64,000 nucleotides of DNA. Origin: Watersipora subatra (lineage: Eukaryota > Bryozoa > Gymnolaemata > Cheilostomatida > Watersiporidae). Made by a program: the position numbers and the translations under genes. The notes below the pieces were generated by a model. The model worked only from the letters and a program-made list of their open reading frames with translations, ran no database searches and was not told the origin of the DNA. The stretch is from positions 29,519,191 through 29,583,190 of the forward strand of contig NC_088708.1 in NCBI RefSeq assembly GCF_963576615.1, read 5' to 3'. This document shows, in pieces, positions 13,379 through 59,255 of the stretch; within the stretch, counting starts at the first letter, position 1, and every line of letters begins with the position of its first letter.

Positions 13379-13582
13379 CTAGCGGACAAGCAGCAGCGAG
13401 GTGAGAAGCATACAGGTAGTGGATAGTAAAACGTGGCCAGCTGAACTATCTGTACCATCTGTACTAGATGGAGCGACAACCGTTGTTGTCTCATCCAAAT
13501 CAGGCAGCCAAATGGTTATCTTAACATCATCTTCAACAATAACCTCTTCCACTGCTATCGCCCCACTGTGAGCTTCCCCAAC
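13379..13582 (-). CDS. RGM-like gene exon 26 (GPI tail, stop)
   Basis: Phase 0 start after acceptor TGCATTAG; 67 residues and TAG at 13379-13381. The acidic stretch EEVIVEDDVKITIW is followed by a Thr/Ser-rich stalk, small residues SSAG near 1135-1138, and a hydrophobic end VLLSTTCMLLTSLLLVR with nothing charged but the final Arg. This is the expected shape of a GPI-attachment signal. Confidence 0.8.
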   Translation of the reverse strand, partial: VGEAHSGAIAVEEVIVEDDVKITIWLPDLDETTTVVAPSSTDGTDSSAGHVLLSTTCMLLTSLLLVR

Positions 13583-16500
13583 CTAATGCAGACAGTAAAC
13601 TCAGTGTAAATTGATGCCCAGTATTGGTACAATACCATGTATAGCTGTTTTACAAAGCTGAGTCTACTATAACAAAGAATGCAAAACGTTGCAGTCTTAG
13701 CATTTGCTAGTGAGCATAGACTGGTGACCTCTATTATTAATGGGTGCCATGACTGCTGTCCTCAACTGACCAGTACCTTGGCTAAAGGAAACTATTTTTA
13801 AACTCATTTTGATGTTCATAGCACGCTATTCATCATTGCAACTTCGACTCTAGATCAAAAATATCAAAGGCCTGTTGGAAGGTTACTGTATATACAACAC
13901 ACTATTATCCAGATAATGGCATCTAGAGTATTGTATGAGTATACAACCCAGTATTATTCAGATAATGCCATCTATAGTAGAAGACTATATGCAACACGAT
14001 ATTATCCTGATAACGCCATATAGAGTACTGTATATACAACACTCTATTATCCAGATAATGGCATCTAGAGTATTGTATGAGTATACAACCCAGTATTATC
14101 CAGATAATGCCATCTATAGTAGAAGACTATATACAACACAGTATTATCCTGATAATGCCATATAGAGTACTGTATATACAACACACTATTAGACAGATAA
14201 TGCCATCTAGACAACAGTATCTGAACACTGCAATTATGCTTTCATATTAGAGGTTGGTTATAAAAGTTTATAAATGAAAACCGGATATAATTTGTTATTA
14301 TTATCATGTTTTATTGTTCTATAAGATTTACGGTGTGTGTGAAGGAGTTAAACAAGTACGTTATTTAGATGTTAGCTTGTCACCTGGTGTAGTCATTAGA
14401 TAGGTATTCACCAAACTTACTCTTAATTGACCTACTTAAGGGTAAGGCCAGTTTAGCAGATTTTTCTTGACATCGTATCTTTTGGCTGTGAAAATAGAGT
14501 TACATAATGCTAGAAATCGTAAAGGGGCCATATTAACTTACTTGTAAGTCCTCCAGAGTGAAACAGTCATATGTACACTCTTCCCGAAGTATTTCAGGGA
14601 TTTCAAGACAGGCTGCTTGGCATTCATCAAATGTTACCGTCGATCTTTTGCGACGCCTGCCTGTAAAGCATGAGAATCATTTGACCATTCTAGAACATTC
14701 TAGAACATTCTTTTACTTCTGCTGCAGGTGTAAAATCTGTTAGTATATGTTTTTTTAAGTTTGATCATGACCTATTGTAACGCCACTAATCATAACTATT
14801 ACTCTCTGTTGATACTCACAATGACTCTCTACTAACCACTACTATTACTCACTGTGACTCTCTACTGGTTATAACTATTACTCTCTGTTGATATTCAGCG
14901 TGACACTCTACTGGTCATAGCTATTGCTCTCTGTTGATACTCACTGTGACTCTCTACTGGTCATAACTATTACTCTCTGTTGATACTCACTTTGACTCTC
15001 TACTGGTCATAACTATTACTCTCTGTTGATACTCACTTTGACTCTTTACTGGTCACTACTATTACTCTCTGTTGATACACACTGTGACTCTCTACTGGTC
15101 ATAACTATTACTCTCTGTTGATACTCACTTTCACTCTTTACTGGTCACTACTATTACTCTCTGTTGATACTCACTGTGACTCTCTACTGGTCATAACTAT
15201 TACTCTCTGTTAATACTCACAGTGACTCTCTACAGGTTATAACTATTACTCTTTGTTGATACTCAGCATGACTCTCTACTGCTTATAACTATTAATCTCT
15301 GTCGATACTCACTGTCACTTTCACTGGTTACTGCAGCATTGGCATTGAGCTCTGTGATGTCAACAGCAGAAGAACCGCACCCGGCAATCAAAAGTCCAGT
15401 TGCAGTCTCGGCATAGCTCCGTGATGTTCTCATCACCATGTTGAAAAAATCACTAAAATGCAAATGAATGAATAATAACACAAACAAATGTATTTACCTA
15501 GTGTTCTCAAACATAGCATATTAAATATATTACAAATACTGCTTGTTTCGTAATTTGAGAACAAGTACGCTGACCTATAAAGTTTGAACATTCTTGTCGA
15601 TAAACTAAAAGTTAAGAGATTGAAGTGGCTCACAAGGTAAAAGAAGATTAAGTACGGACCAGACAGCTGTCTTACATGACGGTATAAACAATAGATTCTC
15701 TTGAATGCACATAAATCATCACCTTGCCTTGCCGCTGTAACAGAAGCTTACACAATGCTGCTCCGCTAGAGTTACATCGACCAGGTATATAGAGAAAGAT
15801 ATTTGAAAAGGTATGCCATAGTTACGCTAAGTGACAAAGAGACCGCGGCAAGCAACTATGACTTCAGTAAAAAAGAAGACAACTTCATCATATTAACAAT
15901 AAACTATTGTAATAATAATAGTAATAACAATGGTGAATTAGCTTTAATCTACAAATATCTGCTTAGTTTCTGAAACTTTAATGAACTATGAACTCTGGCA
16001 GGGCAAAAGTCTGACTCTAGCTACAGCTAGAAGCTAAGGAAATAAGTACTGGCAGAATATTGACATCCAACAGCTAAAAATCCTCACAAAAACAAGTATA
16101 ATATGCAAGGTAACTACGTCAATGGAAGGGTGAACCATCCAGACCTTGGTGAAAGCCAAACAGGATCGGTCATCACCAGACTAGTGGCAGAAAAGAGGCA
16201 GCTCGGCAGCGAAGAAGCTCTCGAAAGAAAATGTTAATACAATCACACTGAGCAGACGCTGCGATAGCTCAAGACTTTTCTACGATTATTGTGAGTCCAT
16301 ATTTTTCTTTATCTGCAAAGTTCTATGAAGTATTTAATCTTTTAGTGTCATTAATAAGATAACTAATATTGTTGCTTGTTATACTTTGAGACTATTTGTT
16401 GCAAATCCTGTGTAATAGCTTCAGTGTGCATATTATTATATAAAATGACACGAGTAAAGTTTTGTTAAATATTACAGATGCATCTATCACTATGATGCAT

Positions 16501-19500
16501 GTTTTTATGTTTAGCTTGCACGCGCTTTGAAACGAGGCTATCACTGGTCAGGTTCTGATTACTTCATGCGTAATCCAAAAATTTTCAAAATTTTCTTTAT
16601 TTAGGCACTTCTTTAATGCAGTAGACACATATAGCACAGATAGCATTACACATGACTGTAATGCAGTAGACACATATAGCACAGATAGCATTACACATGA
16701 CTGTAATGCAGTAGACACATATAGCACAGATAGCATTACACATGACTGTAATGCAGTAGACACATATAGCACAGATAGCATTACACATGACTGTAATGCA
16801 GTAGACACATATAGCACAGATAGCATTACACATGACTGTAATGCAGTAGACACATATAGCACAGATAGCATTACACATGACTGTAATGCAGTAGACACAT
16901 ATAGCACAGATAGCATTACACATGACTGTTTGCAACATTTAGGTTTAGTCCGATTTATATAGAAACTTTTCATTATTTTGGCCTCAATATGTCTGAGTTT
17001 GAGTTATTATTTGGCGTTCAATTAGCATTCATAAAATGCATCTGTTCGAGATAAATTCCCTTACTTGAATCCCTGAATGGCAATGAATGTTCCAGAATTG
17101 ACGTTTTGAATGACGACAGTCTTTCCATTGTCTCTCGTTTCTATGAAGATAGAAAACTGGCCAACAACAACATCTGTCTCTCCGCTATCAAACGCAGGTT
17201 TGATAGCTCCGTCTTTAATTGTATAGTTGAGCACAGATGCATCTGTGTAAGCCGCCCCGGGTGCCCAGACCTTGAAGTATATCTACAAAACAAGCAACAG
17301 ATTGCACATTGTTGGAAAAGGCTTACATATCGCATACTTGTATTTTGGCAGGAGTTGTTTAGCCTTGTGAAGAATGGTCTACATGAGAGTACATATATAC
17401 GCATATACATGCATATGCAGGTTGACAAACAATATCTTAAGAACAAAGTGCTGTCAAAGTATGAGAGCATTTTTTAAAAATCTTATTTGAAATACTAAAA
17501 ATATTAAAGTCATCGAAAACCTGACAAACTTAGCTATACACCTTTAAATCATTTCTGAACTAAGATAGTTGATTGTGTTATTAACTTATTATTATTATCT
17601 CTTTTATTATTATTGCAATTATTACCTTTTACTATCATTAGCGTTATTAGTATTGTTACCATTAGCGTTATTAGTATTGTTATTATTAGTGTTATTATTA
17701 TTGTTACCATTAGCGTTATTAGTATTGTTACCATTAGCGTTATTATTATTGTTACCATTAGCGTTATTAGTATTGTTACCATTAGCGTTATTAGTATTGT
17801 TATCATTAGCGTTATTACTATTGTTATCATTAGCGTTATTAGTATTGTTTTCATTAGCGTTATTAGTATTGTTATCATTAGCGTTATTAGTATTGTTTTC
17901 ATTAGCGTTATTAGTATTGTTATCATTAGCGTTATTAGTATTGTTATCATTAGCGTTATTAGTACTGTTATCATTAGCGTTATTAGTATTGTTATCATTA
18001 GCGTTATTAGCATTGTTTTCATTAGCGTTATTAGTATTGTTATCATTAGCGTTATTAGTATTGTTACCATTAGCGTTATTAGTATTGTTACCATTAGCGT
18101 TATTAGTATTGTTTTCATTAGCGTTATTAGTATTGTTATGATTAGCGTTATTAGTATTGTTATCATTAGCATTATTAGTATTGTTACCATTAGCGTTATT
18201 AGTACTGTTATCATTAGCGTTATTACTATTGTTATCATTAGCGTTATTATTATTGTTATTATTAGCGTTATTAGTATTGTTATTATTAGCGTTATTAGTA
18301 TTGTTACCATTAGCGTTATTAGTATTGTTACCATTAGCGTTATTAGTATTGTTACCATTAGCGTTATTAGTATTGTTACCATTAGCGTTATTAGTATTGT
18401 TACCATTAGCGTTATTAGTATTGTTACCATTAGCGTTATTAGTATTGTTACCATTAGCGTTATTAGTATTGTTACCATTAGCGTTATTAGTATTGTTATT
18501 ATTAGCGTTATTATTATTGTTACCATTAGCGTTATTAGTATTGTTATTATTAGCGTTATTATTATTGTTACCATTAGCGTTATTAGTATTGTTACCATTA
18601 GCGTTATTAGTATTGTTACCATTAGCGTTATTAGTATTGTTATCATTAGCGTTATTAGTATTGTTATCATTAGCGTTATTAGTACTGTTATCATTAGCGT
18701 TATTAGTATTGTTATCATTAGCGTTATTAGTATTGTTTTCATTAGCGTTATTAGTATTGTTATTATTAGCGTTATTAGTATTGTTATTATTAGCGTTATT
18801 AGTATTGTTATCATTAGCGTTATTAGTATTGTTACCATTAGCGTTATTAGTATTGTTATCATTAGCGTTATTAGTATTGTTATCATTAGCGTTATTAGTA
18901 CTGTTATCATTAGCGTTATTAGTATTGTTATCATTAGCGTTATTAGTATTGTTTTCATTAGCGTTATTAGTATTGTTATTATTAGCGTTATTAGTATTGT
19001 TATTATTAGCGTTATTAGTATTGTTATCATTAGCGTTATTAGTATTGTTATCATTAGCGTTATTAGTATTGTTATCATTAGCGTTATTAGTATTGTTATC
19101 ATTAGCGTTATTAGTATTGTTTTCATTAGCGTTATTAGTATTGTTATCATTAGCATTATTATTATTGTTACCATTAGCGTTATTAGTATTGTTACCATTA
19201 GCGTTATTAGTATTGTTACCATTAGCGTTATTAGTATTGTTACCATTAGCGTTATTAGTATTGTTACCATTAGCGTTATTAGTATTGTTACCATTAGCGT
19301 TATTAGTATTGTTACCATTAGCGTTATTAGTATTGTTACCATTAGCGTTATTAGTATTGTTACCATTAGCGTTATTAGTATTGTTACCATTAGCGTTATT
19401 AGTATTGTTACCATTAGCGTTATTAGTATTGTTACCATTAGCGTTATTAGTATTGTTACCATTAGCGTTATTAGTATTGTTACCATTAGCGTTATTAGTA

Positions 19501-36204: not shown

Positions 36205-36236
<32 letters not shown>

Positions 36237-48200: not shown

Positions 48201-51200
48201 CACGCAGGCACACAGGCAAGCAAGTGCCCAGACACACGCGCGCACACTTCTACGCGTATAAAGAAAACAGATATAAAGAAACTTTGCCAAGCTAGTACTT
48301 TCAACTCAATAAGACTGCAAGCTTGTCTTAAAAGTTGAAAGTGCCAAAAGTTGTTTTCCGTATAAAAAATTTGCACTGATAATATAATTTTCTTTTGACT
48401 CTCTGTAACAGGTCTAGAATATATTTTAAAAGATTTTGCTTTGCCTATTCAAGGAAACAAAAATCTCATGCTTATAATATTTTAAAAAGTCATTCCACAA
48501 ACATTTTCTTAAACGCCTATTTAAAAAATACTGCGAATTCATTCTCCTATCATGCTCATTCCTATCACGTGAATTCATTCATTCACGCTCCACTTGACTC
48601 TATAGAAAGCAAATGAATTCTTTAATCATAAAAGTATTTGTTCATTCTTTTGCTGTGTATCTGCAGAGCATCTTTGTGAATTTCTTATGCTTTAAACAAC
48701 TTAAATAACAGAAAAGAATTCAAGCCCCTGGTTCATACACAATGCTACTATGGATGCTACATACGTACATTAGCAATGGCCAACACCAAATACTGTACCT
48801 TTGTAGTGATTCGCAGAATCTGCCGAATGATGGATTGGATGGTTGGGTCATTTACAAAGTCTATGAAATCCAGACGCTCTGGTGGGTGGTTAGGGTCAAC
48901 CACACATGTAAATGCTGAAGTCAGCCCTTCAGAATGCTCATTCATCCCTGGTACCAAAAATAACACAGATTCAAATCGTACAGTGTAGAACTAATCTGGA
49001 CCAAAATATTTTTACTAGATTTTTTTACCCTGGACTACTTGCTATTACCCTAAAGAATATTGACTAGCTGTAAGCTTGTACTTGGAACATGCAGTATCAC
49101 CTGAAAGTATGGCGTGACAAAGGGTTCAAGGCAATAAATATCTTTAAAACCAGCTATTTTTCTATATATGCATATAAAATACTAGTTTAGGTTTGACAAG
49201 ATGGAAGCTTATTGCAAACGAAACATGAAAGTGAAAATTTGTTAAAATGCATAAAACATGCTATCGTGGGATTTCATCCCACAACCTTACAGTGGTGGGT
49301 TGCGGGTTGTACCGTGCAGAACGTAAGCAATGTACATAATCTACCTTCAACTGCCATACATCATTGCTTAATATGACAAATAGAGAGCTACTTTGTAAGG
49401 TGAAATGAGGTTTCAATAAAAGAAGCGTTTTACATCAAATACTCGGTTGACATAAATCTTACTGATTTAATATTCGACACAAAAAACAATTGAGTTTTTA
49501 TTAAATAGGAAGTTTTTCTGAAAGATACCAAATTTTGTGTGTAATATGTCATGCCAAAACAAAAATTTCAAAAAGTAATAAAAGTCAGGTTATTGTCCAG
49601 TACTAACATTTGTGTTCATAAAATAATTACAAAAAATTCAATGTTGCATTTACCTTGTCAGACTTCAAGAAAAACAAAAATCCGAAATTATGTAAAAAAG
49701 CCTCTATTAATTTGCAATTCAATAAATTATAATCTGTTATAAATACTTAATAAATAATTTATATGTTATCATTCTTTTTAACAACTCGGCTAGCAAAAAC
49801 AGAGTAAGAGAATTACAGATTTTTTTGTTCAAGCGTTATCAAAGCTGAACTACACAGAGAGTTATCCTCTCTCATTGAAAATGCATTAGGCCACTTACAA
49901 TCTACTGAGGTACTCTTTACATCAGTGCCATCACAGAAAACTCCTATGAAAGGGTTGATGAATAAATCAATCATTTGTATTACATCACTGCTACTGGAAC
50001 ACCTCGCATTCAACTCTTCTATTATGCAGGTTGACAGCTCATCCAGGATTCTGAATCACAGAATATGACTGGGTAACATCACATCATCACAATACCTTGG
50101 GAAAAAAGGAGAAATAGAAGGAAGAGGGATGTGGGCTGACTAAAAAAGCTTACAGGCAACATGTTCCAGGGATGATGAAGATAGGATAACTCCTTACCAT
50201 TTTTTCTATTTATTGGAACATGCTCTCAGGGAAAATCAGAAAACATTTATTAAAAAACTGTTAAACAATTTTCCTTGGCATAGACTATGGACCAAATTTA
50301 CTCCCAATTTAAACAAACCTATTTACTTGAATGTTAGTAGTTATTTTACTATTTTGCATAATATTTTAGACATAAAGCTATGGTAACCTGACCATTCAGC
50401 AACGTTAATTAAGGTGAGTGAAGCTGCCATTGGCTGCCTCACAAAATAATGTAATCTTTATTATTAGCATAATCCACTAAATAAATTTGTTGTTTTCACA
50501 TACAGTAATTATATTGACTGGCCAAATACCCACTCACTTTGGTATCTGATCAGCCTCATAGATGACCAGTAAGGAATTATTTAGTTTTTGCTTGAAAATA
50601 TCTGAATACTTCTATAGTAACACTAGACTATTTATTCAAGCTCCTCTAGTTATACATATACATAATTATTTGTATTTATATTATTCAGAATATAAGTGTA
50701 TGAATAACTTTATTTATATAATATTATAACATAATATATAAATAAATATTATTCAGAATAAAAGTTTCATCATAAGCAATAATTAATATCAAATTATTGT
50801 GTTTTAATGGAATCTGACGGAATGTAGTGCAATATAAAACAATGTGTAGTGTATTACAAGTGTTGTGCCATGTAGTGATATGTAATACAAAGCAATGCCC
50901 GGTAATGAGATCTCCTGTAACATAATGCAATGAAAGGAAATGCAATGAAATGTACAGTTACTTGTACGTATATTTTGACTGAGGCAGAAAATATGAGACA
51001 GACAGGAACCAAACTCAATTCTCTGATGTCACAGTTGTGCCTGGGTTTTATCTCCACTATAAACATCACTTGAGATCTCCATACAGCCTATTAATGCTAA
51101 TGCGCTGCCAATGTATTGATTCCATATGGTGGGTAAATTGTCACTCTTTAATGTACTGTACTGGGTATGACTGTGTTCTATTGATTGACATCCAGTAGGT

Positions 51201-54200
51201 AAAGGTGAAAGCAGAAATAAGTACTTTAGCATAATGAGTGCGTCTCTCTGTACATGTGTAATAGATGCACAAGAATATCCATAATAGAGATATACCGGTC
51301 CTGAAAAACCTGCAATACATGGATTTCTATGCTGTAAGGATTATAATAGATGTATTTCTATGCTGTAAGGATTATAATACATGTATTTCTATGCTGTAAG
51401 GATTATAATACCGGTAGATGTACCTCTATGCTGTAAGGATCATAATAGATGTATCTCTATGCTATAAGAATTATAATAGATGTATGTATCTCTATGCTGT
51501 AAGGATTATAATAGATGTATTTCTATGTTGTAAAGATTAAATAGGTCTTATAGGGATTACAACGGTCTCATACCATCATTTAATTGTCTCATACCATCAT
51601 TTAGTGGTCTCATACCATCATTTAGTGGTCTCATACCATCATTTAGTAGCCTCACGCCATCATCTAGTGGTCTCATACCATCATTTAGTGGTCTCATACC
51701 ATCATTTAGTGGTCTCATACCTCCATTTAGTGGTCCCATACCATCATTTAGTGGTCTCATACCATCATTTAGTGGTCCCATACCATAATTTAGTGGTCCC
51801 ATACCATAATTTAGTAGTCTCATACCATCATTTAGTGGTCTCATACCATCATTTAGTAGTCTCATACCACCATTTAGTAGTCTCATACCATCATTTAGTG
51901 GTCCCATACCATCATTTAGTGGTCTCATACCATCATTTAGTGGTCTCATACCATCATTTAGTAGTCTCATACCATCATTTAGTGGTCCCATACCATCATT
52001 TAGTGGTCTCATACCATCATTTAGTAGTCTCATACCACCATTTAGTAGTCTCATACCATCATTTAGTGGTCCCATACCATCATTTAGTGGTCTCATACCA
52101 CCATTTAGTGGTCTCATACCATCATTTAGTGGTCTCATACCATCATTTAGTGGTCTCATACCATCATTTAGTAGTCTCATACCATCATTTAGTGGTCCCA
52201 TACCATCATTTAGTGGTCTCATACCATCATTTAGTAGTCTCATACCATCATTTAGTAGTCTCATACCATCATTTAGTGGTCTCATACCATCATTTAGTGG
52301 TCTCATACCATCATTTAGTAGTCTCATACCATCATCTAGTGGTCTCATACCATCATTTAGTAGTCTCATACCATCATTTAGTAGTCTCATACCATCATTT
52401 AGTGGTCCCATATCATCATCTAGTGGTCTCATACCATCATTTAGTAGTCTCATACCATCATTTAGTGGTCTCATACCATCATTTAGTGGTCTCATACCAT
52501 CATTTAGTGGTCTCATACCATCATTTAGTAGTCTCATACCATCATTTAGTGGTCCCATACCATCATTTAGTGGTCTCATACCATCATTTAGTAGTCTCAT
52601 ACCACCATTTAGTAGTCTCATACCATCATTTAGTGGTCCCATACCATCATTTAGTGGTCTCATACCACCATTTAGTGGTCTCATACCATCATTTAGTGGT
52701 CTCATACCATCATTTAGTGGTCTCATACCATCATTTAGTAGTCTCATACCATCATTTAGTGGTCCCATACCATCATTTAGTGGTCTCATACCATCATTTA
52801 GTAGTCTCATACCACCATTTAGTAGTCTCATACCATCATTTAGTGGTCCCATACCATCATTTAGTGGTCTCATACCATCATTTAGTGGTCCCATATCATC
52901 ATCTAGTGGTCTCATACCATCATTTAGTGGTCTCATACCATCATTTAGTGGTCTCATACCATCATTTAGTGGTCCCATATCATCATCTAGTGGTCTCATA
53001 CCATCATTTAGTAGTCTCATACCATCATTTAGTGGTCTCATACCATCATTTAGTGGTCTCATACCATCATTTAGTGGTCTCATACCATCATTTAGTAGTC
53101 TCATACCATCATTTAGTGGTCCCATACCATCATTTAGTGGTCTCATACCATCATTTAGTAGTCTCATACCACCATTTAGTAGTCTCATACCATCATTTAG
53201 TGGTCCCATACCATCATTTAGTGGTCTCATACCACCATTTAGTGGTCTCATACCATCATTTAGTGGTCTCATACCATCATTTAGTGGTCTCATACCATCA
53301 TTTAGTAGTCTCATACCATCATTTAGTGGTCCCATACCATCATTTAGTGGTCTCATACCATCATTTAGTAGTCTCATACCATCATTTAGTAGTCTCATAC
53401 CATCATTTAGTGGTCTCATACCATCATTTAGTGGTCTCATACCATCATTTAGTAGTCTCATACCATCATCTAGTGGTCTCATACCATCATTTAGTAGTCT
53501 CATACCATCATTTAGTAGTCTCATACCATCATTTAGTGGTCCCATATCATCATCTAGTGGTCTCATACCATCATTTAGTGGTCTCATACCATCATTTAGT
53601 GGTCTCATACCATCATTTAGTGGTCTCATACCATCATTTAGTGGTCCCATACCATAGTTTAGTGGTCCCATACCATAATTTAGTGGTCTCATACCATCAT
53701 TTAGTGGTCTCATACCATCATTTAGTAGTCTCATACCATCATTTAGTGGTCCCATACCATAATTTAGTAGTCTCATATCATCATTTAGTGGTCTCATACC
53801 CTCATTTAGTAGCCTCATACCATCATTTAGTAGTCTCATACCATCATTTAGTGGTCTCATACCACCATTTAGTAGTCTCATACCATCATTTAGTGGTCCC
53901 ATACCATAGTTTAGTGGTCCCATACCATAATTTAGTGGTCCCATACCATAATTTAGTAGTCTCATACCATCATTTAGTGGTCTCATACCCTCATTTAGTG
54001 GTCTCCTACCATCATTTAGTAGTCTCATACCATCATTTAGTAGTCTCATACCATCATTTAGTAGTCTCATACCATCATTTAGTAGTCTCATACCATCATT
54101 TAGAGGTCTCATATCATCATGTAATGGCCTCTTACTATCATGTAGTAGTCTCATACCATCATTTAACGCCTACCGACAGTGAGAGCTGAGTGATTCAGTA

Positions 54201-57200
54201 AGGAGAGCAGCCATATTTGACATGTCACCAAACATTGGACGGATGAATTGTTCATCAGTCAAGTCTTTCAGATGCTCATCATAGAAGCTTGATGCTAGCC
54301 ATATAAGGGCTGGTTCCAACTCGCCGAAGACCTTTATGAAAAAAGAGTTGATATATATGTTTAATTCTGAATGCTGCAAGGCGAATTTTTGGAACACAAG
54401 CTAATGTCTCTGAAGCTTGATTCAAGAAAATAATTAAAAAGGTGACTTCAAATCAGTCTGCGCACAGCAACTTCACATGTATAATTAACTAATAATTGTT
54501 CATTATTATTATTATTATTATTAAAATTATACAATAATTAGAATTTTATGTAGAGTTGATAGATTTTCAATCTATATCATGGTATGTACGTATAGCTTTT
54601 TATTGGTATTAGTAATTATCTACAAAATTTTGTTTTTCATTACATTTCATGAAAAAATGAAAAAAATTAAAAGACAGAAATCAGTAACTGTTGAGTGAGA
54701 TGAATAAAAGTGTTTTAAAAGTTGGTAATTTAATAGTATTGCGGAGGAGTCGGGATAGTGAATTAAAGGCGGTATGTATCAACAGAAATGTCATAAAGCT
54801 GAAACATATGATGGTGAATGTAGTATGTTGGTGTCACAAAATAGAAAATGATGCTTGTCATATGTGTGGAAGGATAAATACACATATTCTGGGCATATTT
54901 CAAATATATATACAAATTTAGCATCTTTCCAATGATCTCAACAATATATACATGTTGGTTGTTACTAAACGCGCAGTTAAGACATTCTAGCTGTTTGCAT
55001 ATTTCCTGCCTTTTATTCTAAAGCATGTAGAGCACATCATACCTGATCGTGTTGTGTTACCTCAACTTACAAGTGTACGACCTATTTTACTGGTTATACA
55101 TACCTCTATGTGAATTCACTATAGCAACATCACCCCAGTATATATGATAATCGCGATTTGATCTATTTGTTAAAATCTCTGTTAGCATATACTCAGTGGA
55201 AAGTAATTAGTCACCTGATACTTTCACAGAATCATATTGACTAGCTAAATACCAACTCGCTTTTGATATCTGATCAGCCTCATAGATGACTAGTAAGGAA
55301 TTATTTAGTTCCTGCTAGAAGAGAATTGAGTTCTTCCACAGTAACACTGGACCAGCCGTTCTTAACCTGGGTACAATCAAGCCCTAGTGATTTGATGAGT
55401 CACTCTCAGGAGTTCGGTAGAGGTGGAGGTCTCTCAAAGGCAACAGCAGAGGATGCACCGACTTACAAGCTCACTTCTTTATGAAAAGATATGCAATTTA
55501 TTTGCAAGGCCACGCCTTTATTTGTAGCGAGTTCATGCATTGTATTGGTTTTGTTCTTCGAACACAGCGATGTTAATGCACAGTTCATTTTGTGCACGTG
55601 TAAAACATATACCTAGGTCTTAAATGCGAAAAAGTTATATTTTATTTTTTAATAAAGAGGGTTTCGGTAAAACTGGTGAGGTTCAGTACATCCAACAAGG
55701 TTAAGAACCATTGCACCAAACTATTTATGCAGGCTTCTCTAGTTATTTATATACATTTATATAGATATTTCTCAAATTTGGGCGCATGTCAGTAGTTCCA
55801 GCTATAGCTGTTAAAATCTTGGAATAAAGAATCTGTATCGCAGAAGATTTAATTTCTGACCATCCGGTTTGCCAGTCCGACGCCTCATCAATTCAGCCAT
55901 ACGAGCTTGATGCATTCATTAGGCGATATATGTCTCCATATGGGAGCAAATATGTTACTGCTTTTCGTCCAGACGTAATGTGATGGCGTAACATCATGAG
56001 AGGTGGTAGCTCTTACTAGTAAGCTTACTCAAATTATCATTGGCAATGTGCCAGGCTAATAGCAAGTGGCAGGCAACTCTCATTACCTCTCATTGTTTAT
56101 AAGCTGATTTTTAACATCCCGGACAATGCCAGGTAGCACAGCTCGTGTATTTATATTATTCAGAATTAAAACTTTACCATACGAAATAGGCTAGTTAATA
56201 TAAAATAGTTGTGTTGTAATGGAATGTAATGCAATATAAATGTAAAGTAATGCAGTGCAACATAGTATAATGTAGTGAGAGAAACTACAAAATAATACTT
56301 TGTAAGGTAATCTTACGCAATGTAATGCAACGAAAGGGAATCCAATGAAATGTACATTGCTCTGTATGTTTTGACTGCTGTAGAAAAACACGACAGGTAC
56401 CGTGACAGCCACTAGCACAGATGGGTATCACAATAAACACTGATAAGTATTTTAGTAGACACAAACAGCTATTAATGACTGAGACATGCATGATTGGCAC
56501 TGGCAGGTATCCTGACCAGTGCTGAGAGTTGTTATTATTGGGTCAGAGAAATATCATGACAGGTGTTGACAGGTATCTTGGCTGATGCAGATGCAAATAA
56601 GAAACATGCCATGCAACATATTGCCTCAATTGGTTAATAACAAAAAAGTTTAAAGGTCCTTTTAGTAGACCGGAACTGTATTAATACTTTTATACAAAGC
56701 ATTAATGGCGGCTGAAATTCCAGTTTTGCGCATGATTGAGCTGCCAAATTAGTTGCACGTTTTGTTTCATTGAATGTCGTAATGCTGAAAAGTGCCTGAT
56801 GCACACCAATAACAAAGTCTTCATTTACACACATTGAAGATCCAACAATGAAACTAGGCCAATAAAACAATAAAGTCTTTCATTAATGTTTATCAATTAC
56901 CAAGCAACCATGTATTGATAGGTGTATTGAAATTTACCATTAAGTAAATATTGCAGATTCTTACACTGCGCAATAACAATAGACTTTTAATAATGCCTTC
57001 ATTGATAATCGTAACTTTATAACAATATGTATAACCGTATAATGATATGCATAACCGTATAATGACATGTATAACTGTATAATGAGATTTATAACCGTAT
57101 AATGATATATATAACCGTATAATGATATGTATAATCGTATTAATGTATCCATTTAGATTAAAGAAAATACTCATGAAGTTATATCATTTCATAACATTCA

Positions 57201-59255
57201 CAAAACAGAATGTGGCTGCATTTTTTCCTTGAAACAAATGAAACTATTATAAGCATATCGATTGATCAGTGAAACCGCCTACAGCAAAAGGTGAGGAGTC
57301 TTTTTTCACCTGTATCATGGATCAGCTGTTAGCAGCTGAAATTCACCACGTAGCACTGGCTTCCAAAACTACTGTTACAGCTGACAGCTACCCTATGCCT
57401 CAGAGTCTCATTGTGTAAATACTCTTTACTTTGAATACAAACAACTTTAGATCAAACCACAGGCCTCTTGCATCACTTATTTTATTCTGAAGAGTTCAGT
57501 GAATTCTTGTATAACAACTGACAGCAACAGTCAGTCTACACTTACCTATCACGCAGCTATGTGGTATAAAAACTATTATGGCACTCACCGTGAGCATTTC
57601 AGCGAATGTGTGGTCATTGAAGAATTCTTCGATGGTCTCTGCCTCTATAACAATAAAAATAAATGTCTAAAAAACCTATATTACCACAGCAAGCAGTAGC
57701 AGGCAAACTCATTTAACGAAACAGCACTTGTAGTACCTACAGTAAATGATACTGCCCATGAGAACATGTTTTAAATGTTGTTAGTGATGTACAGACTGTA
57801 TAACTCTCAGTTTCACTGTTTTAATAAACTGCAAAGTCTTTTTCAAATATTTTTGGTTTTCAGTGCTTCATTTTATATATCTTTTGAGATTTTGCAAATT
57901 TTTCAACAAATCTGTAGTTCCAAATACAGAAATTCTCTTTATTTGTCCAAGGTTCTTTCAAAGCTAGATGATTTGACAGCCTCAAATGCAAGAATATGTG
58001 AGATACACTGGCAGCCGTTTGTTTCTAACGTCAGCGCACGATGAATATTTGCAGATGAATCTTAGCAATGCATTCATTCTCATTACCACCACCTTAGAAT
58101 AGTGTGAAACTGTTCTCCTCATGTGCTAGTTTGTGTAACTGTTATGTACATTGAGCTATTGATATTTAGTAAACATCAAGTAGACGAGGTGGTGAACTTG
58201 TAAACTTTGTCTGACATACCCTCATGTGATTGAAGTTTTAAATTTCTTTAAAGAGCTTTTTACATATTAAATAAAATGCATAAGTTATATATATAATTTA
58301 TATATAAAATATAAATCTTATAAAAGATCTATAACTCTATATATTTCACTGCTAAACCAGCAGATTATTGTGTATTCTGACAATAACATAATAATAACTA
58401 TTGCAAGCAATTGCGCGTTCACAGCTATATATTATAATTTAGTTATTTGGTACATCTACTGCCAACACATACGCATGTCATTCTGATTATTTTCAAATAT
58501 TCAACGACTCATCATGAATATGCATTTGAATTGTTATCAATTTATTAATGTTTATGGAAATATTCATATTGGTTAGCTATGATAATAGTCATGGTTTATT
58601 AGTATAGAGTGCCGAATAAGGTCAGTGGTAATGACAGACAACTCCTAACTGGATAGATTTATAATCTTTACTATAATAAGAGCTTTGTTCGTCCGTCTGT
58701 CCAAAACCAGTTGGAGGTTGAAAAAACAAATACATCATACAGGTTTTGAGCCCACTACATGCGGCTTTGCCACCCAGCACACTAGCACTTGTGCCTATCA
58801 GTTACCTTTCATGGCTGCAGAATTATTGTGTGTATAGTTAATCTCTGTACTTTATTGAAACGCTTGACAATCTCTCACAGCACACCGGACGGCCAGGATA
58901 CTAATATACTAATATACTAATATTTAAATATATAGAGATTATAATAGATGAATAGTTTTTACCATAACCGTCAGTGGCGAGAACATCAATATAGCTGATG
59001 TATTTGGTGAGGTTGAATTCACCATCAGTGTTGAACCCGCAGGTCATACCACTATTCATAATTGCTTCTAGTTCACATCCGAGTGATGCTGAAATACATA
59101 GAACACAATTAATAGATGTAACAAATAACTATGAATATCAATTAAATCTCATATTCAAAAACAGTATCTATGTATGTAAAACGAGTATGTATCTAAAAAC
59201 ACTTACCTTTTGCTCCAAGTAATACCAACATTAGGTAAGCGAGTCTCCCACCCAT
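13379..59255 (-). CDS. Secreted, GPI-anchored two-unit RGM-like protein, 26 exons
   Basis: I joined 26 exons on GT-AG sites; phases agree throughout and the total is 3471 nt (1156 aa). Layout: signal peptide 1-17; unit 1 about 18-574 (helical Cys region, then a domain with GNNH at 364-367 and a CxxxC/CxxxC hairpin at 529-547); unit 2 about 575-1100 (same order, GDPH at 878-881, Cys893, hairpin Cys1063-1082); RRRKR at 1051-1055; small omega-type residues near 1135 and a hydrophobic tail ending in Arg, as in GPI-anchored proteins. The order GDPH, xTxC, beta-rich segment, CxxxC helix pair and GPI tail is that of the RGM family (neogenin ligands and BMP co-receptors that self-cleave at Asp-Pro). 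A generic VWD domain is the alternative. The N-terminal region is unlike known RGM N-termini. Function in guidance or BMP signalling is inferred only. Confidence 0.8.
13884..14215. repeat. Tandem repeat in intron 25, about 47 bp in blocks of about 142 bp
   Basis: Subunits contain ATTATCCAGATAATGCCATC and TATATACAACACA. The motif TACTGTATATACAACAC returns at 13884, 14028 and 14168, so three subunits form a larger block repeated about 2.3 times. The core CAGATAATG carries a short dyad. Remaining intron 25 DNA (13583-13883 and 14216-14541) shows nothing else. Confidence 0.85.
14542..14660 (-). CDS. RGM-like gene exon 25 (RRRKR and CxxxC hairpin, unit 2)
   Basis: Residues 1050-1089, phases 1 in / 0 out. 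It begins with a split Ser and RRRKRS, a possible proprotein convertase site. A helical hairpin follows with Cys at 1063, 1067, 1078 and 1082 (CxxxC, 10 residues, CxxxC). Homologous exon 14 has the same pattern with 9 residues between. The CTYDCFTLEDL end recalls the SCVFDLLTTGD region of RGMs. Confidence 0.82.
14783..15320. repeat. 46-bp array amplifying the exon 24 splice donor
   Basis: About 11.5 copies of a 46-bp unit containing ACTCTCTACTGGTCATAACT and TTGATACTCACTGTG. On the minus strand each unit reads CAGTGAGTATC, the same as the real exon 24 donor at 15312. The last copy runs about 20 bp into exon 24, so exon end and donor are part of the amplified unit. Between 14661 and 14782 nothing else is seen. 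Confidence 0.9.
15313..15452 (-). CDS. RGM-like gene exon 24
   Basis: Residues 1003-1049, phases 2 in / 1 out, acceptor ATTTTAG and donor GTGAGT. It encodes DFFNMVMRTSRSYAETATG, then LLIAGCGSSAVD, with Cys1028. This parallels the IRMPED...LCVNGCP segment at the end of the RGM beta-domain, and exon 13 of unit 1 (NWVVYVRAGRG, LEKGC, Cys509). Its 3' end overlaps the 46-bp array. Confidence 0.82.
15453..16613. other. Intron 23, acceptor side
   Basis: Unique AT-rich intron sequence. I see no exon, transposon or array apart from the 45-bp repeat next to it. Confidence 0.4.
16614..16928. repeat. Seven near-identical 45-bp repeats in intron 23
   Basis: 315 bp made of seven apparently identical 45-bp copies. 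Each contains TAATGCAGTAGACACATATA and AGCACAGATAGCATTACACA, so TAATGC and GCATTA form an inverted pair within the unit. The 45-bp length is a multiple of three, which leaves long false open frames on the minus strand. It lies 136 bp downstream of the exon 23 donor. Confidence 0.95.
17065..17282 (-). CDS. RGM-like gene exon 23 (beta-rich core, unit 2)
   Basis: Residues 931-1003, phases 0 in / 2 out. It starts IYFKVWAPGAAYTDASVLNY and includes KDGAIKPAFDSGETDVV and GKTVVIQNVNSGTFIAIQ. This resembles the RGM segment with VPxAFxDG followed by VEIQAxYIGTTIxIRQ. Sequon at Asn949. In unit 1 the same stretch is split into exons 10, 11 and 12 (236 nt against 218 nt), with the same outer phases. Confidence 0.85.
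17633..23070. repeat. Giant 24-bp minisatellite in intron 22
   Basis: About 226 copies of a unit near ATTAGCGTTATTAGTATTG plus TTACC. Variant third-base blocks (TTACC, TTATC, TTTTC, TTATT) are arranged in order. A rare TTATG variant followed by GCATT recurs at about 18137 and 20393, 2256 bp (94 units) apart. The marker GCATTATTATTATTG recurs at 19153, 20017, 21073 and 21961. As 24 is a multiple of three and no unit carries a stop in several frames, both strands are open for more than 5 kb; these are not genes. Confidence 0.97.
23335..24548 (-). mobile_element. Family-A interspersed element, copy 1 (intron 22)
   Basis: The left end has ATATAAATCTCAAAG and GTCCAGCTATAGCAAT. A minus-strand tRNA-like head lies near 23430-23510 (GTGAGTTCCAATC as B box). 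The right end has TAGGCAATGCCGAGC and CAGCTAG. Long internal stretches match copy 3 (for example TCATATAATTGTATACCAA). It has no intact coding capacity. Confidence 0.6.
24816..25013 (-). CDS. RGM-like gene exon 22 (GDPH exon, unit 2)
   Basis: Residues 865-930, phases 0/0. It begins NYGSKERVSMWVVGDPHIR, then SKFTYCQADGLTTYF. GDPH is at 878-881 and Cys893 follows 15 residues after the Gly, as in RGMs (GDPHLRTF...FQTC). In RGMs the Asp-Pro bond is self-cleaved. Sequon at Asn924. The donor is GTGCAC, weaker than most here. Homologous exon 9 has GNNH instead. Confidence 0.85.
25088..26190 (-). mobile_element. Family-A interspersed element, copy 2 (intron 21)
   Basis: It begins in a TA-rich tract and carries a minus-strand tRNA-like head at about 25213-25287 (GTAGCTCAGTGGTAGAGCGC as A box, GTGAGTTCTTATCC as B box). 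It ends in ACCCGGGCAACACCGGGTAG and CACAGCTAG. The right end contains a local GGGTAGGGTA duplication. Internal frames are closed. Confidence 0.7.
26191..27150 (-). mobile_element. Family-A interspersed element, copy 3 (intron 21)
   Basis: It directly follows copy 2, head to tail. The tRNA-like head at about 26280-26346 reads CGCTCTGTGGTAGAGC and GAGTTCAAATCC on the minus strand. The body resembles copy 1 (GTCTCGAAGGT, AATCATATAATTGTATACCA). The GGCGTTG-type terminus is missing, so it is truncated about 40 bp before exon 21. Confidence 0.6.
27188..27350 (-). CDS. RGM-like gene exon 21
   Basis: Residues 810-864, phases 2 in / 0 out. It encodes ARSPMRCVVKVVGEQCPSID with Cys818 and Cys827, then an amphipathic stretch. 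The CPSID motif (827-831) is repeated exactly in exon 8 (309-313), with the same phases. Confidence 0.82.
27681..27784 (-). CDS. RGM-like gene exon 20
   Basis: Residues 776-810, phases 0 in / 2 out, donor GTAAGT. It reads EMLNRCDFDNIFFRLTSIAE with Cys781. Helical, rich in Glu, Leu and Ile. It is the counterpart of exon 7 by position and phase, though identity is low. Intron 20 (27351-27680) shows nothing further. Confidence 0.78.
27785..28397. other. Intron 19
   Basis: Unique AT-rich sequence with a short G run near 28110. No exon or repeat array is seen. Confidence 0.4.
28398..28507 (-). CDS. RGM-like gene exon 19
   Basis: Residues 739-775, phases 1 in / 0 out. It reads MVGERDAFMDEVACFVDLTN. 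Met740 and Cys753 are 13 apart, exactly as Met182 and Cys195 in exon 6, and both continue FVD/VVD. Intron 18 (28508-29060) contains only a short diverged repeat, GCACTATGTGACCTAGTTA, near 28640-28700. Confidence 0.82.
29061..29221 (-). CDS. RGM-like gene exon 18
   Basis: Residues 685-738, phases 2 in / 1 out. Cys at 693, 702 and 722 in IEPMVSCMERKLPEFCLTTH and MRYCTGIGVDS. Exon 5 has Cys at 138, 147 and 169 with the same phases, and both carry a central I/F-x-P motif. Confidence 0.82.
29368..29551 (-). CDS. RGM-like gene exon 17
   Basis: Residues 624-685, phases 1 in / 2 out. It contains AAYEPYILYGMSALVEEF, FRPM at 667-670 and HC at 683-684. Exon 4 has EPALIW, FIRPM and HC in the same order. 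It corresponds to exons 3 plus 4 of unit 1 (184 nt against 214 nt, same outer phases). Confidence 0.82.
30090..30465. repeat. ACATAC/ACATATGT microsatellite in intron 16
   Basis: A long impure run of 4-6 bp units (TACATACA, CATATGTA, GTATGTAT) with much inverted symmetry. Its end is about 35 bp from the exon 16 donor. Open frames across it on both strands are low complexity and not genes. A palindromic ATTA-rich tract lies at about 29700-29800 in the same intron. Confidence 0.9.
30501..30649 (-). CDS. RGM-like gene exon 16 (start of unit 2)
   Basis: Residues 574-623, phases 2 in / 1 out, acceptor ATTTTAG, donor GTACGT. It reads DGEVHAPCSTIGFLINVGSE, then CGYE, with Cys591 and Cys604. Exon 2 has GCELEAIMNSGMTCGF with Cys21 and Cys33, so unit 2 restarts here. 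Contains a sequon NYS. Confidence 0.8.
30650..32782. other. Intron 15
   Basis: Apart from a fragment of family A at 31510-31880 I see unique AT-rich DNA. The short open frame at 31921-32112 has no recognisable product. Confidence 0.4.
31510..31880 (-). mobile_element. Family-A interspersed element, fragment (intron 15)
   Basis: It shares GTCCAGCTGTAACTATTAAA, CGCGTTTTGCTAGATTTGAA and the later TTTCGTAAGGTTCAAT with other copies. The right end with the GGCGTTG terminus is absent. Confidence 0.55.
32783..32847 (-). CDS. RGM-like gene exon 15
   Basis: Residues 553-574, phases 0 in / 2 out. It encodes TGMVDEMREFEAFDRVAALY, a short acidic helix closing unit 1. By position it matches the start of exon 26, which instead leads to the GPI tail. 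Confidence 0.75.
32961..33058 (-). CDS. RGM-like gene exon 14 (CxxxC hairpin, unit 1)
   Basis: Residues 520-552, phases 1 in / 0 out. GSDQCKTLCESL and MRDPCVLDCLAQQ give Cys529, 533, 543 and 547. The CxxxC, 9 residues, CxxxC pattern repeats that of exon 25. There is no basic cleavage motif in front of it, unlike unit 2. Confidence 0.82.
33532..33641 (-). CDS. RGM-like gene exon 13
   Basis: Residues 483-520, phases 2 in / 1 out. It reads NWVVYVRAGRGAHDLGFGAL, then EKGCGEEDD, Cys509. Two donors are possible: GTAAAG at 33547 (out of phase with exon 14) and GTACGT at 33531 (in phase). I chose the second, which also gives the phase of homologous exon 24. Intron 13 (33059-33531) and intron 12 (33642-34104) show nothing else. 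Confidence 0.75.
34105..34190 (-). CDS. RGM-like gene exon 12
   Basis: Residues 455-483, phases 0 in / 2 out. It reads ELEESNYEDFFSFFYPTVGV, then IVSIENPSG. Corresponds to the last part of exon 23 (TVVIQNVNSGTF), with the same exit phase. Confidence 0.75.
34361..34590. repeat. 52-bp array amplifying the exon 11 splice donor
   Basis: About 4.4 copies of a 52-bp unit containing AAGGAAACTGTGAGACAGTG and AATACTCACTCGTAGTAAGG. On the minus strand each copy contains GTGAGTATT, identical to the real donor at 34561, preceded by about 20 bp matching the end of exon 11. The last copy overlaps exon 11. Confidence 0.92.
34562..34659 (-). CDS. RGM-like gene exon 11
   Basis: Residues 422-454, phases 1 in / 0 out. 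It reads AFLYYVDNNYWPQVARITKD, then LHENWYSYTLLK. Beta-rich, Tyr/Trp-rich. Matches the middle of exon 23. Its last 20 bp are part of the 52-bp repeat unit, and the authentic donor is the first of several copies. Confidence 0.78.
34855..35245. repeat. AT-rich nested palindromes in intron 10
   Basis: Repeated inversions of TATAGATGTAATATATCTAT with its complement ATAGATATATTACATCTATA. Many cruciform-capable segments. It adjoins family-A copy 4. Confidence 0.8.
35246..36205 (-). mobile_element. Family-A interspersed element, copy 4 (intron 10)
   Basis: The best preserved long copy. Left: CTCAAAGTTGG, CCAGCTATAGCTATTAAAAT. The minus-strand tRNA-like head at about 35333-35402 has GGCTCAGTGGTAAAGTG (A box) and GTGAGTTCCAATAC (B box). 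Right terminus: TTATTACCCACGCAACGCCG, GGTAGTACAGCTAG. Open frame 35419-35862 crosses it without homology to a transposase. Confidence 0.7.
36206..36400 (-). mobile_element. Family-A terminal fragment (intron 10)
   Basis: After a (TA)n/TATACA tract comes only the right-hand end, TATAAGCTGTTTTTACTACC, CGTGCAACACCAAGC and GGCCAGCTGG. A degenerate tail without the tRNA-like head. From 36401 to 37285 I see nothing. Confidence 0.5.
37501..38470 (+). pseudogene. P-element-like transposase remnant
   Basis: The frame near 37774-37960 reads FKINQDYIEILLSTIQSKGG, then YNNNPDVQCFRSA, broken by a TGA where Arg would be expected. A later open segment (38090-38470) has VKNRGGLVTRLIGRICIAAE and HANSLLNTIVNRYTKIRIHY, ending LRQKLSRLVIF. 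These blocks resemble the C-terminal half of P-element/THAP9-type transposases. The catalytic N-terminal part is not recognisable. Frame changes and stops make it inactive. Confidence 0.72.
38547..38613. repeat. Perfect 31-bp inverted repeat, 5-bp loop
   Basis: Arms 38547-38577 and 38583-38613 are exact complements around TATAG. It lies inside the P-like element, just after the transposase remnant and 69 bp before the Tigger insertion. Confidence 0.95.
38682..39932 (-). mobile_element. Tigger/pogo element nested in the P element
   Basis: Terminal inverted repeats CAGTCATACTTCGACTTACG and, at the right end reversed, CAGTAATACTTCAACTTACG. TA occurs at both junctions (38680-38681 and 39933-39934), the TcMar-type target duplication. 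It is 1251 bp and carries a degenerate transposase on the minus strand. Confidence 0.88.
39125..39640 (-). pseudogene. Tigger-type transposase remnant
   Basis: The minus strand begins ITIDIKRKIIEKYAK, then IELARQYDRNTSTI, the pogo/CENP-B helix-turn-helix. After stops and a shift it continues as an open 103-codon frame, MERLLRHWIKDKQLAGDCVT and ETMLRKKAGAIYQD, the second CENP-B DNA-binding half, ending RQRQTSLDRFL. The DDE catalytic domain is absent. Confidence 0.82.
40191..42388. repeat. 23-bp AT-rich minisatellite in intron 10
   Basis: About 95 copies of TCATATATTATTAGTAATAT plus ATC. The core TATTATTAGTAATA is nearly its own complement, so each unit can fold back. Variants GTAATG/GTAATA and AATAATG alternate as a 46-bp dimer at about 41085-41340. 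It ends 52 bp from exon 10, on the donor side. Confidence 0.96.
42440..42491 (-). CDS. RGM-like gene exon 10
   Basis: Residues 405-422, phases 0 in / 1 out. It reads ILVGGGYYGKQILFNST. Short but flanked by ATTTGTAG acceptor and GTAGGT donor. Aligns with the start of exon 23 (IYFKVWAPG). Confidence 0.75.
43124..43202. mobile_element. 79-bp P-type miniature element (MITE), intron 9
   Basis: It begins CATAGATATAGTAAA and ends GGGTTTACTATATCTATG, the same ends as the P-like element at 37294-40134. It is flanked by a perfect 8-bp repeat GGTAAATA (43116-43123 and 43203-43210). The inside is made of the left end repeated about three times. The rest of intron 9 (42492-43783) shows no other element. 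Confidence 0.85.
43784..43945 (-). CDS. RGM-like gene exon 9 (GNNH exon, unit 1)
   Basis: Residues 351-404, phases 0/0. It reads ADRYSLAVLGNNHVYNLEQD, then EWITTCLYQSDDRLLLAFDS. GNNH at 364-367 stands where exon 22 has GDPH; Cys380 follows 16 residues after the Gly against 15 in exon 22. It has lost the Asp-Pro bond, so self-cleavage is not expected. Confidence 0.82.
44035..44221 (-). CDS. RGM-like gene exon 8
   Basis: Residues 288-350, phases 2 in / 0 out. It reads IRPTADCYVHEVMPLPERLC, then PSIDIIQQATMLMDTI. Cys296 and Cys309; CPSID at 309-313 as in exon 21. A Met-rich helix follows. Confidence 0.82.
44252..44655 (+). mobile_element. Family-A interspersed element, short copy, inverted (intron 7)
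   Basis: Opposite orientation to the other copies: it begins ACTAGCAAAATTCCCAGCGT, TGCATGGGTATTAAAAATCA, and ends TTTTAATAGCTATAGCTGGA, CAAACTTTGAAA. A plus-strand tRNA-like head is at about 44520-44578. About 400 bp, matching the copy at 55755-56150 (both have GCCTGGCACATTGCCAATG or its complement). Confidence 0.72.
44917..45118. repeat. 20-bp minisatellite in intron 7
   Basis: About ten imperfect copies of AACAATAGAGTTGTCTCCT with ATTAATGGAGTTGTCTC variants. Intronic; the rest of the intron (45119-45691) is unique. Confidence 0.85.
45692..45834 (-). CDS. RGM-like gene exon 7
   Basis: Residues 241-288, phases 0 in / 2 out. It reads CNGLAIGPAVVDWPTGKELV, then DMFDENFNISTFNIF. Cys241 and a sequon at Asn268. 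Same phases as exon 20. Confidence 0.8.
45835..47099. other. Intron 6, donor-distal part
   Basis: AT-rich unique sequence, with a loose repeat CAGATTTCAGAAATCAGATT near 46985-47060. No exon seen. Confidence 0.4.
47100..47272. repeat. Long palindromic repeat in intron 6
   Basis: Left half GTGAACATCTATGCATGTG repeated, right half its complement, centred near 47190 on TATGTGCACATA. The whole tract could fold as one hairpin of about 80 bp per arm. The 12-20 bp units are also direct repeats within each arm. Confidence 0.88.
47793..47966. repeat. CTCACCTGAC minisatellite in intron 6
   Basis: About 17 copies of a 10-bp unit, CTCACCTGAC or CTCACCTAAC, arranged partly as 15- to 30-bp blocks (CACCTGGCTTCACGTAAC). 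On the minus strand the unit reads GTTAGGTGAG or GTCAGGTGAG, which includes donor-like AGGTGAG. From 47967 to 48768 nothing else is seen beyond a CA-rich patch near 48190-48250. Confidence 0.88.
48769..48947 (-). CDS. RGM-like gene exon 6
   Basis: Residues 181-240, phases 1 in / 0 out. It reads MNEHSEGLTSAFTCVVDPNH, then a long helical stretch RLDFIDFVNDPTIQSII. Cys195. Homologous to exon 19 with an extra 23 residues at the end. Confidence 0.82.
48948..49898. other. Intron 5
   Basis: AT-rich, with a short dyad around 49268-49290 (GTGGGATTTCATCCCAC). No exon or transposon recognised. Confidence 0.4.
49899..50050 (-). CDS. RGM-like gene exon 5
   Basis: Residues 130-181, phases 2 in / 1 out, strong donor GTAAGT. 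It reads ILDELSTCIIEELNARCSSS, then DVIQMIDLFINPFIGVFCDG. Cys138, 147 and 169. Matches exon 18 in Cys spacing (9 then 22, against 9 then 20). Confidence 0.83.
50500..51030. repeat. Dispersed block, copy in intron 4
   Basis: Matches 55225-56430 over its length: GGTATCTGATCAGCCTCATA, GTAAGGAATTATTTAGTT, TTATATTATTCAGAAT, then the ATGCAATGAAAGGAAATGCA and GAAATGTACA part. This copy is uninterrupted. No coding potential. Confidence 0.8.
51315..51535. repeat. 31-bp minisatellite in intron 4
   Basis: About seven copies of ATAGATGTATTTCTATGCTG plus TAAGGATTATA, with small indels. It directly precedes the 21-bp array. Confidence 0.88.
51557..54165. repeat. 21-bp satellite in intron 4, touching exon 4 donor
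   Basis: About 124 copies of CCATCATTTAGTGGTCTCAT plus A. Markers show a 567-bp (27-unit) higher-order period: CATACCACCATTTAGTGG at 52094, 52661 and 53228; CCCATATCATCATCTAG at 52407, 52974 and 53541. The last unit ends within 8 bp of the exon 4 donor (54173). The 21-bp length leaves both strands open; these frames are not genes. Confidence 0.97.
54174..54331 (-). CDS. RGM-like gene exon 4
   Basis: Residues 78-130, phases 0 in / 2 out, acceptor ATAAAG, donor GTAGGC. It reads VFGELEPALIWLASSFYDEH, then FIRPM at 106-110 and SSHC at 126-129. Homologous to exon 17. Confidence 0.83.
54332..55224. other. Intron 3, acceptor side
   Basis: Unique AT-rich sequence with a short (ATT)n run near 54500. 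The open frame at 54691-54921 has no recognisable product. Confidence 0.4.
55225..56430. repeat. Dispersed block, copy in intron 3, split by family A
   Basis: Same block as 50500-51030 but interrupted: the left part (TGATATCTGATCAGCCTCAT) and the right part (TTATATTATTCAGAATT, GAAATGTACATTG) flank extra sequence and a family-A element at 55755-56150. Confidence 0.78.
55755..56150 (-). mobile_element. Family-A interspersed element, short copy (intron 3)
   Basis: Left: ATAGATATTTCTCAAATTTG, CCAGCTATAGCTGTTAAAAT. The minus-strand tRNA-like head at about 55850-55912 (TGGCTGAATTGATGAGGCGT) resembles Ser/Leu-type tRNA and differs from the heads of the long copies. Right: TAACATCCCGGACAATGCCA, GGTAGCACAGCTCG. 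Inserted in the dispersed block. Confidence 0.75.
57020..57150. repeat. 20-bp minisatellite in intron 3
   Basis: About six copies of ATAACCGTATAATGATATGT. The remaining intron DNA between 56431 and 57588 shows no other element. Confidence 0.88.
57589..57644 (-). CDS. RGM-like gene exon 3
   Basis: Residues 59-77, phases 1 in / 0 out, donor GTGAGT. It encodes AETIEEFFNDHTFAEMLT after a split Glu. Short acidic helix; corresponds to the start of exon 17 in unit 2 (TIAEIL). Confidence 0.75.
57645..58962. other. Intron 2
   Basis: AT-rich. A possible repeat end at about 58660-58720 (TATAATAAGAGCTTTGTTCG, TCCGTCTGTCC) recalls interspersed-element termini but I found no second copy in the window. 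The open frame at 57775-58044 is not supported. Confidence 0.4.
58963..59088 (-). CDS. RGM-like gene exon 2 (start of unit 1)
   Basis: Residues 17-58, phases 1 in / 1 out. It reads ASLGCELEAIMNSGMTCGFN, then TDGEFNLTKYISYIDVL. Cys21 and Cys33, sequon Asn42. Homologous to exon 16. Confidence 0.82.
59207..59255 (-). CDS. RGM-like gene exon 1 (signal peptide)
   Basis: The ATG at 59253-59255 is followed by MGGRLAYLMLVLLGAK and a split Ala, then donor GTAAGT. One Arg and a hydrophobic run make a typical signal peptide, with cleavage likely around residue 16-20. A TACTTAG 22 bp upstream could be the acceptor of a 5'UTR intron. Confidence 0.8.

Follow-up and report, generated by a model that had tools for sequence, protein, structure and literature searches.

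The window analysed here, 64,000 nucleotides of the genome of the cheilostome bryozoan Watersipora subatra (contig NC_088708.1), contains two successive sets of minus-strand exons with corresponding landmarks, the second set ending in a GPI-like tail. The locus raises two linked questions: do the two sets, here units 1 and 2, belong to a single gene, and is the product related to the RGM proteins, which connect BMP and neogenin signalling? The reading we favour, with a probability of about 0.55, is one gene whose product, a diverged RGM family member or a near relative of that family, has an internally duplicated ectodomain.

Gene model and database coverage

On the minus strand, an ATG at 59255 is connected to a stop at 13379 by a chain of 24 phase-compatible exons with GT..AG boundaries, giving 3282 bases and 1093 residues with a single terminal stop. 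The strand, the start in a signal-peptide-like exon and the stop are those proposed in an earlier note on this DNA. That note had counted 26 exons, of which 24 are supported; the exon sequence for about 50 unit 1 residues, expected in the interval 43784-34190, was not located. Exon 1 (59207..59255), with the start codon and the signal-peptide-like sequence MGGRLAYLMLVLLGAK, has an open frame and a strong donor. The last exon (13379..13582) encodes an acidic linker, the GPI-like tail and the stop. Hydrophobicity was 2.84 for the N terminus and 2.06 for the C-terminal tail, both values being those of a hydrophobicity measure only and not of a predictor.

Most of unit 2 coincides with P0001, the NCBI/UniRef entry 'uncharacterized protein [Watersipora subatra]' of 506 aa, which is identical across all 506 residues to model residues 588-1093. 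P0001 is encoded by ten exons spanning 29471-13379 on the minus strand, starts at Met 29471 inside the FRPM..HC exon and covers unit 2 only. Ten of the 11 exons of unit 2 are confirmed by it, the earliest of them only from the internal Met on: the FRPM..HC exon (29368..29551, phases 1-2), the three-Cys exon (29061..29221, 2-1), the M-x12-C exon (28398..28507, 1-0), a 0-2 exon (27681..27784), the CPSID exon (27188..27350, 2-0), the GDPH exon (24816..25013, 0-0, with GDPH itself at 24974-24963), the beta exon (17065..17282, 0-2), the GC exon (15313..15452, 2-1), the exon with RRRKR and CxxxC/CxxxC (14542..14660, 1-0) and the last exon. The exons from GDPH to RRRKR are also covered by the RGM_C match described below. 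Outside P0001 lies the unit 2 C..C exon (30501..30649, 2-1; the alternative acceptor 30668 gives phase 1). P0001 lacks all of unit 1 and a signal peptide, yet has the GPI-like tail; because it starts at an internal Met and has no signal peptide, the entry is probably truncated. The public annotation of the locus is probably incomplete. Protein searches with the whole of unit 2 (at least 7994 candidates scored), with a query of most of unit 1 joined to a portion of unit 2 (at least 7995) and with the CPSID-GDPH part of P0001 (28 candidates) returned P0001 or nothing among the matches listed; unit 1 entries under about 382 aa fell outside the length limits of these searches, and their word filter misses distant relatives.

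The exons of unit 1 are supported in several ways. Block comparison with unit 2 supports the FIRPM..HC exon (54174..54294, 1-2), the three-Cys exon (49914..50050, 2-1), the CPSID exon (44035..44221, 2-0), the GNNH exon (43784..43945, 0-0) and the CxxxC/CxxxC exon (32961..33058, 1-0), the last of these also through RGM_C chimeras. The chain further includes the M-x12-C exon (48799..48947, 1-0), a 0-2 exon (45692..45834) and the GC exon (33532..33641, 2-1). The edge of the FIRPM..HC exon is uncertain, because 54294 is a poor acceptor (top 90.3% of AG, leave-one-out), and the C..C exon (58963..59088, 1-1) has a weak donor (top 33.2% of GT). In gap A, the single extra exon (57546..57644, 1-1) scored 16.5, a little below the 18.0 of an alternative with two exons, and the simpler form was retained. 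The second beta exon (34105..34190, 0-2) was common to 14 of the 14 gap B chains listed; here too the simpler form was kept over a chain with two extra tiny exons (18.6, vs 11.9 for 34190-34105 alone).

The two CPSID motifs fall at residues 296 and 764 in the 24-exon model and at 309 and 827 in the earlier reading; 13 residues of the difference arise ahead of the first CPSID and 50 between that motif and unit 2. The 50-residue difference is plausible, because from GNNH to the GC motif unit 2 exceeds unit 1 in length by about 50 residues. In the 9.6-kb intron 43784-34190, the scoring of 30 candidates by comparison with unit 2 revealed no convincing unit 1 exon; the best candidate for the missing strand exon, 38703-38560 (z 2.8), was rejected, as it enters a hairpin repeat. 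In tblastn searches with pieces of unit 2, the beta query gave self matches and noise among the matches listed. The direct jump from 43784 to 34190 maintains the reading frame.

Several other features occur in the introns and flanks. The hairpin, at 38540-38620 in the unit 1 intron that is missing an exon, is near-perfect, with 38-base arms that are 95% complementary and a 5-base loop. A transposase remnant lies in a unit 1 intron at 39128-39463 (minus strand; PF03221, Tc5 DNA-binding domain, 27.1 bits), and an ORF beside it, 39496-39627, had no match. A 24-base unit repeated about 227 times fills 17633-23070, within the unit 2 intron that separates the GDPH exon from the beta exon; because 24 is a multiple of 3, both strands have frames that stay open through this array for more than 1800 codons, which is an artefact. 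One 21-base minisatellite unit forms two arrays, of 124 copies at 51564-54165 in a unit 1 intron and of 68 copies at 62568-63996 upstream of the gene. The window also contains, at 9407-10909 (minus strand), a rhodopsin-type GPCR, about 500 aa long and encoded by a single exon (Pfam Srw 96.1 bits, 7tm_1 67.5 bits).

Homology of the two units

All of the landmarks listed in the earlier note were found, in identical order in the two units. The C..C pair is C21/C33 in unit 1 and C528/C541 in unit 2 (591/604 in the earlier numbering). FIRPM..HC in unit 1 corresponds to FRPM..HC in unit 2, and both units continue with a three-Cys exon, an M-x12-C exon and the CPSID motif. GNNH at 351, followed by Cys 367, stands in unit 1 where unit 2 has GDPH at 815 and Cys 830; the GC motif is KGC in unit 1 and AGC in unit 2, and CxxxC/CxxxC occupies residues 467-485 and 1000-1019, respectively.

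In a local alignment from which the last 60 residues were excluded, units 1 and 2 scored 99; shuffled sequences scored 39.6 ± 5.4 with a maximum of 65, and 0 of 2000 reached 99. When the N halves and the C halves were aligned alone, 0 of 2000 shuffles reached the score in either case. With the three junction residues taken out of unit 1, the whole, N and C alignments were reached by 0, 0 and 1 per 1000 shuffles. The exons were also compared as nine ordered blocks. A block's own partner scored best in six of the nine, and the diagonal sum was 244, as against 77 ± 32 for permuted pairings, a value reached in 0 of 50000 permutations. Taken individually, five block pairs were reached by 0-26 of 1000 shuffles; the C..C, M-x12-C, 0-2 exon and beta2/GC pairs were reached by 63-172 of 1000 and are not significant singly. 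The two-unit pattern is real and not a product of chance.

The phases of the homologous introns agree in 10 of 10 cases (1, 2, 1, 0, 2, 0, 0, 2, 1, 0). This agreement is not fully independent, because some unit 1 sites were chosen with the unit 2 phases in view; it supports homology of the units without proving it. The intron entering each unit, which is outside the ten, is of phase 1 in unit 1 and of phase 2 in unit 2 (phase 1 with acceptor 30668), and in the 24-exon model unit 1 has one additional intron, before 54294. Judged by their sequences, the two units are homologous and have diverged.

One gene or two

We consider it probable that both units are carried on one transcript. The doubled middle is flanked by one signal-peptide-like exon in front and one GPI-like exon behind, and fusion of the units into one gene is favoured by this single pair. 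No ORF with a hydrophobicity of at least 2.0 and a usable donor was found at 32.78-30.65 kb. Between the units there is a weak start-exon candidate at 30995-30926, with a hydrophobicity of 1.88 and a weak donor, and four further candidates, at 43094, 39787, 36225 and 34916, lie in unit 1 introns. Control intron sequence of 18,320 bases, with an overlap of 1.15 kb within it, contained 34 signal-peptide-like ORFs vs 2 at 33.0-30.5 kb; because such ORFs are common by chance, the lone signal-peptide exon is moderate evidence only.

A possible, though less likely, arrangement is that the locus consists of two neighbouring genes produced by tandem duplication of an RGM-like gene. Unit 1 would then be secreted and end soon after its Cys hairpin, and unit 2 would be transcribed alone from a start exon that went unrecognised. 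The existence of P0001 as a separate unit 2 model agrees with this arrangement, but that model lacks a signal peptide and has the GPI-like tail; moreover, whole-gene copies would each be expected to have signal-peptide and anchor exons, and one of each was found, a moderate argument for a single gene. Some features of the junction speak for two genes. The proposed bridge exon, which encodes the tail of unit 1 (32783..32847, 0-2), has an open frame and a coding score, but, of the 23 donors in the model, the one that it uses at 32783 ranks last (top 56.5% of all GT, leave-one-out), and this site is followed immediately by an in-frame stop with ATTAAA alongside. In-frame bridges are also easy to find, a further point for two genes: loose splice rules readily yield candidates. 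A bridge that pairs donor 32803 with a small exon at 32369-32344 is likewise in frame. Neither acceptor at the join is unusual (top 21.4% and top 14.9% of AG); those of P0001-confirmed exons reach 39.5%. A retained intron after 32961, which would supply unit 1 with a hydrophobic tail, was rejected, as the donor there is strong (top 0.2%).

It is improbable that one gene gives rise both to a full form with two units and to a short form with unit 2 alone, the latter arising from an internal promoter or from exon 1 spliced straight to 30668, in phase. The phase 1 donor of exon 1 does fit acceptor 30668 with an open frame, and P0001 does begin within unit 2, but the acceptor is weak (top 46.7% of AG), and neither exon 1 nor 30649-30501 is part of P0001.

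Relation to the RGM family and other known systems

Unit 2 matched Pfam RGM_C (PF06534) with 29.9 bits for the whole unit and 32.2 bits for the C half, above the cut-off of 27, and the C half covered positions 8-228 of the 237 in the profile. Pfam VWD gave no match at E≤10 in the C half of either unit. The profile check suggested in the earlier note thus found RGM_C, and not VWD, in unit 2, and this result, with the homology of the units, bears out the tandem duplication of an RGM-like unit proposed there. Without the last tail, the C half of unit 2 scored 33.0 bits; removal of the GDPH exon left 24.6 bits, and removal of the Cys hairpin and tail left 20.4. The hairpin-and-tail segment provides the largest single share (12.6 of 33.0 bits), and the score is spread across the domain. 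A search of the PDB by sequence gave no RGM chain at E≤10 and no match for the N half of unit 2; its sole match, a beta-glucuronidase chain (E 1.7 and 0.93), was regarded as chance. An NCBIfam search gave no match, and a single-sequence AlphaFold model of P0001 (mean pLDDT 34.5) was too poor for a fold search. By profile, unit 2 is RGM-like. That the product is instead a VWD-like extracellular protein unrelated to RGMs, matching RGM_C through a shared VWD fold only, is improbable: the RGM_C score is modest, BBS7_GAE appeared in the same Pfam search at E 0.0039 (below its own cut-off), and neither RGM_N nor an RGM chain was matched, but VWD itself is without a match, RGM_C is above cut-off across most of its profile, and hairpin and tail, rather than any other segment, make up its largest share.

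The earlier note's reading of unit 1 as a second RGM-like unit was not supported by direct recognition of an RGM domain: the C half of unit 1 had no Pfam match at E≤10 in a model from which about 50 residues of the domain are absent. Parts of unit 1 were also placed in unit 2 chimeras. The GNNH exon gave an RGM_C score of 23.6 bits, as against 23.7 for the reversed control, and with the beta/GC part the match was lost, as it was with the reversed control. When the hairpin and tail of unit 1 replaced those of unit 2, the score was 27.6 bits, and 21.4 when reversed, a gain of 7.2 bits vs 1.0; this was the only unit 1 part that added score, and the unit 1 hairpin therefore carries RGM_C signal. 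Unit 1 supplied with its missing strands from unit 2 still gave no RGM_C match. Unit 1 is RGM-like by way of its homology to unit 2, without direct recognition. RGM_N had no match at E≤10 in the N half of either unit, in searches whose HMMER filters drop most matches above E 0.1. A long Cys-rich region lies at the place of RGM_N, in keeping with the earlier suggestion that the usual RGM N-terminus has been replaced.

The GDPH of unit 2 matches the autocleavage motif of the RGM family. Unit 2 also has a furin-type site, RRRKR, between the GC motif and the last Cys hairpin, at what we take to be the place of the hemojuvelin furin site; no R-x-[KR]-R site was found in unit 1.

On the favoured reading, that of one gene, a single RNA would join the units, and the chain would run from a signal peptide through unit 1, unit 2 and an acidic linker to a GPI anchor. 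Unit 1 would consist of a Cys-rich region, a degenerate RGM-type domain with GNNH and a Cys hairpin, and unit 2 would follow the same plan with GDPH intact. Like RGM and other VWD domains, unit 2 would undergo self-cleavage at GDPH, and the GNNH of unit 1 would stay uncut. Cleavage at RRRKR by a furin-like protease may free the two units jointly. The product would be a GPI-anchored surface protein that acts as a ligand or co-receptor of RGM type and carries two modules per chain; because RGM_N was not found, neogenin-type binding would be more plausible than BMP binding.

PMC10880436 describes the GDPH cut, between Asp and Pro, in many VWD domains. That paper and PMC4395201 report cleaved GDPH in RGMB, partial GDPH cleavage of hemojuvelin to a disulfide-joined heterodimer, and furin cleavage of hemojuvelin at RNRR to a soluble form. 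In vertebrate RGMs the N-terminal domain binds BMP/GDF and the C-terminal domain binds neogenin, and a GDF5 dimer carries two RGMB, in a 2:2:2 complex with separate RGM molecules (PMC7354924). One speculative and rather doubtful suggestion is that the bryozoan protein is a covalent double RGM on one GPI-anchored chain, with a cleavable GDPH module and a GNNH module locked in the uncleaved state, that simultaneously engages the two halves of a BMP/GDF dimer or a pair of neogenins. No report of a two-unit RGM was found among the open-licence papers listed, and a chain with two units would be unusual for this known family of cell-signalling molecules. If there is one chain, the pairing of RGMs on a ligand dimer can be built into a single protein, and one of two RGM copies can lose the self-cleaving GDPH.

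VWD proteins with GDPH, such as FCGBP, MUC4 and SUSD2, have that motif in common with unit 2, but the Watersipora subatra protein has no Pfam VWD match and has an RGM-type C-terminal segment. With the RGM family (RGMA, RGMB, RGMC/hemojuvelin and DRAG-1 of C. elegans), the model would share a signal-peptide-like start and a GPI-like tail on one chain, and unit 2 shares the GDPH-bearing C-terminal RGM_C domain and a furin-type site ahead of the last Cys segment. Vertebrate RGMs have fewer Cys at the place of CxxxC/CxxxC. In sum, the model differs from the RGM family in that RGM_N is unmatched and a Cys-rich region of about 300 residues precedes each C-terminal domain, in that unit 1 has GNNH, has no R-x-[KR]-R and is unrecognised as RGM_C, and in that it contains two units in tandem.
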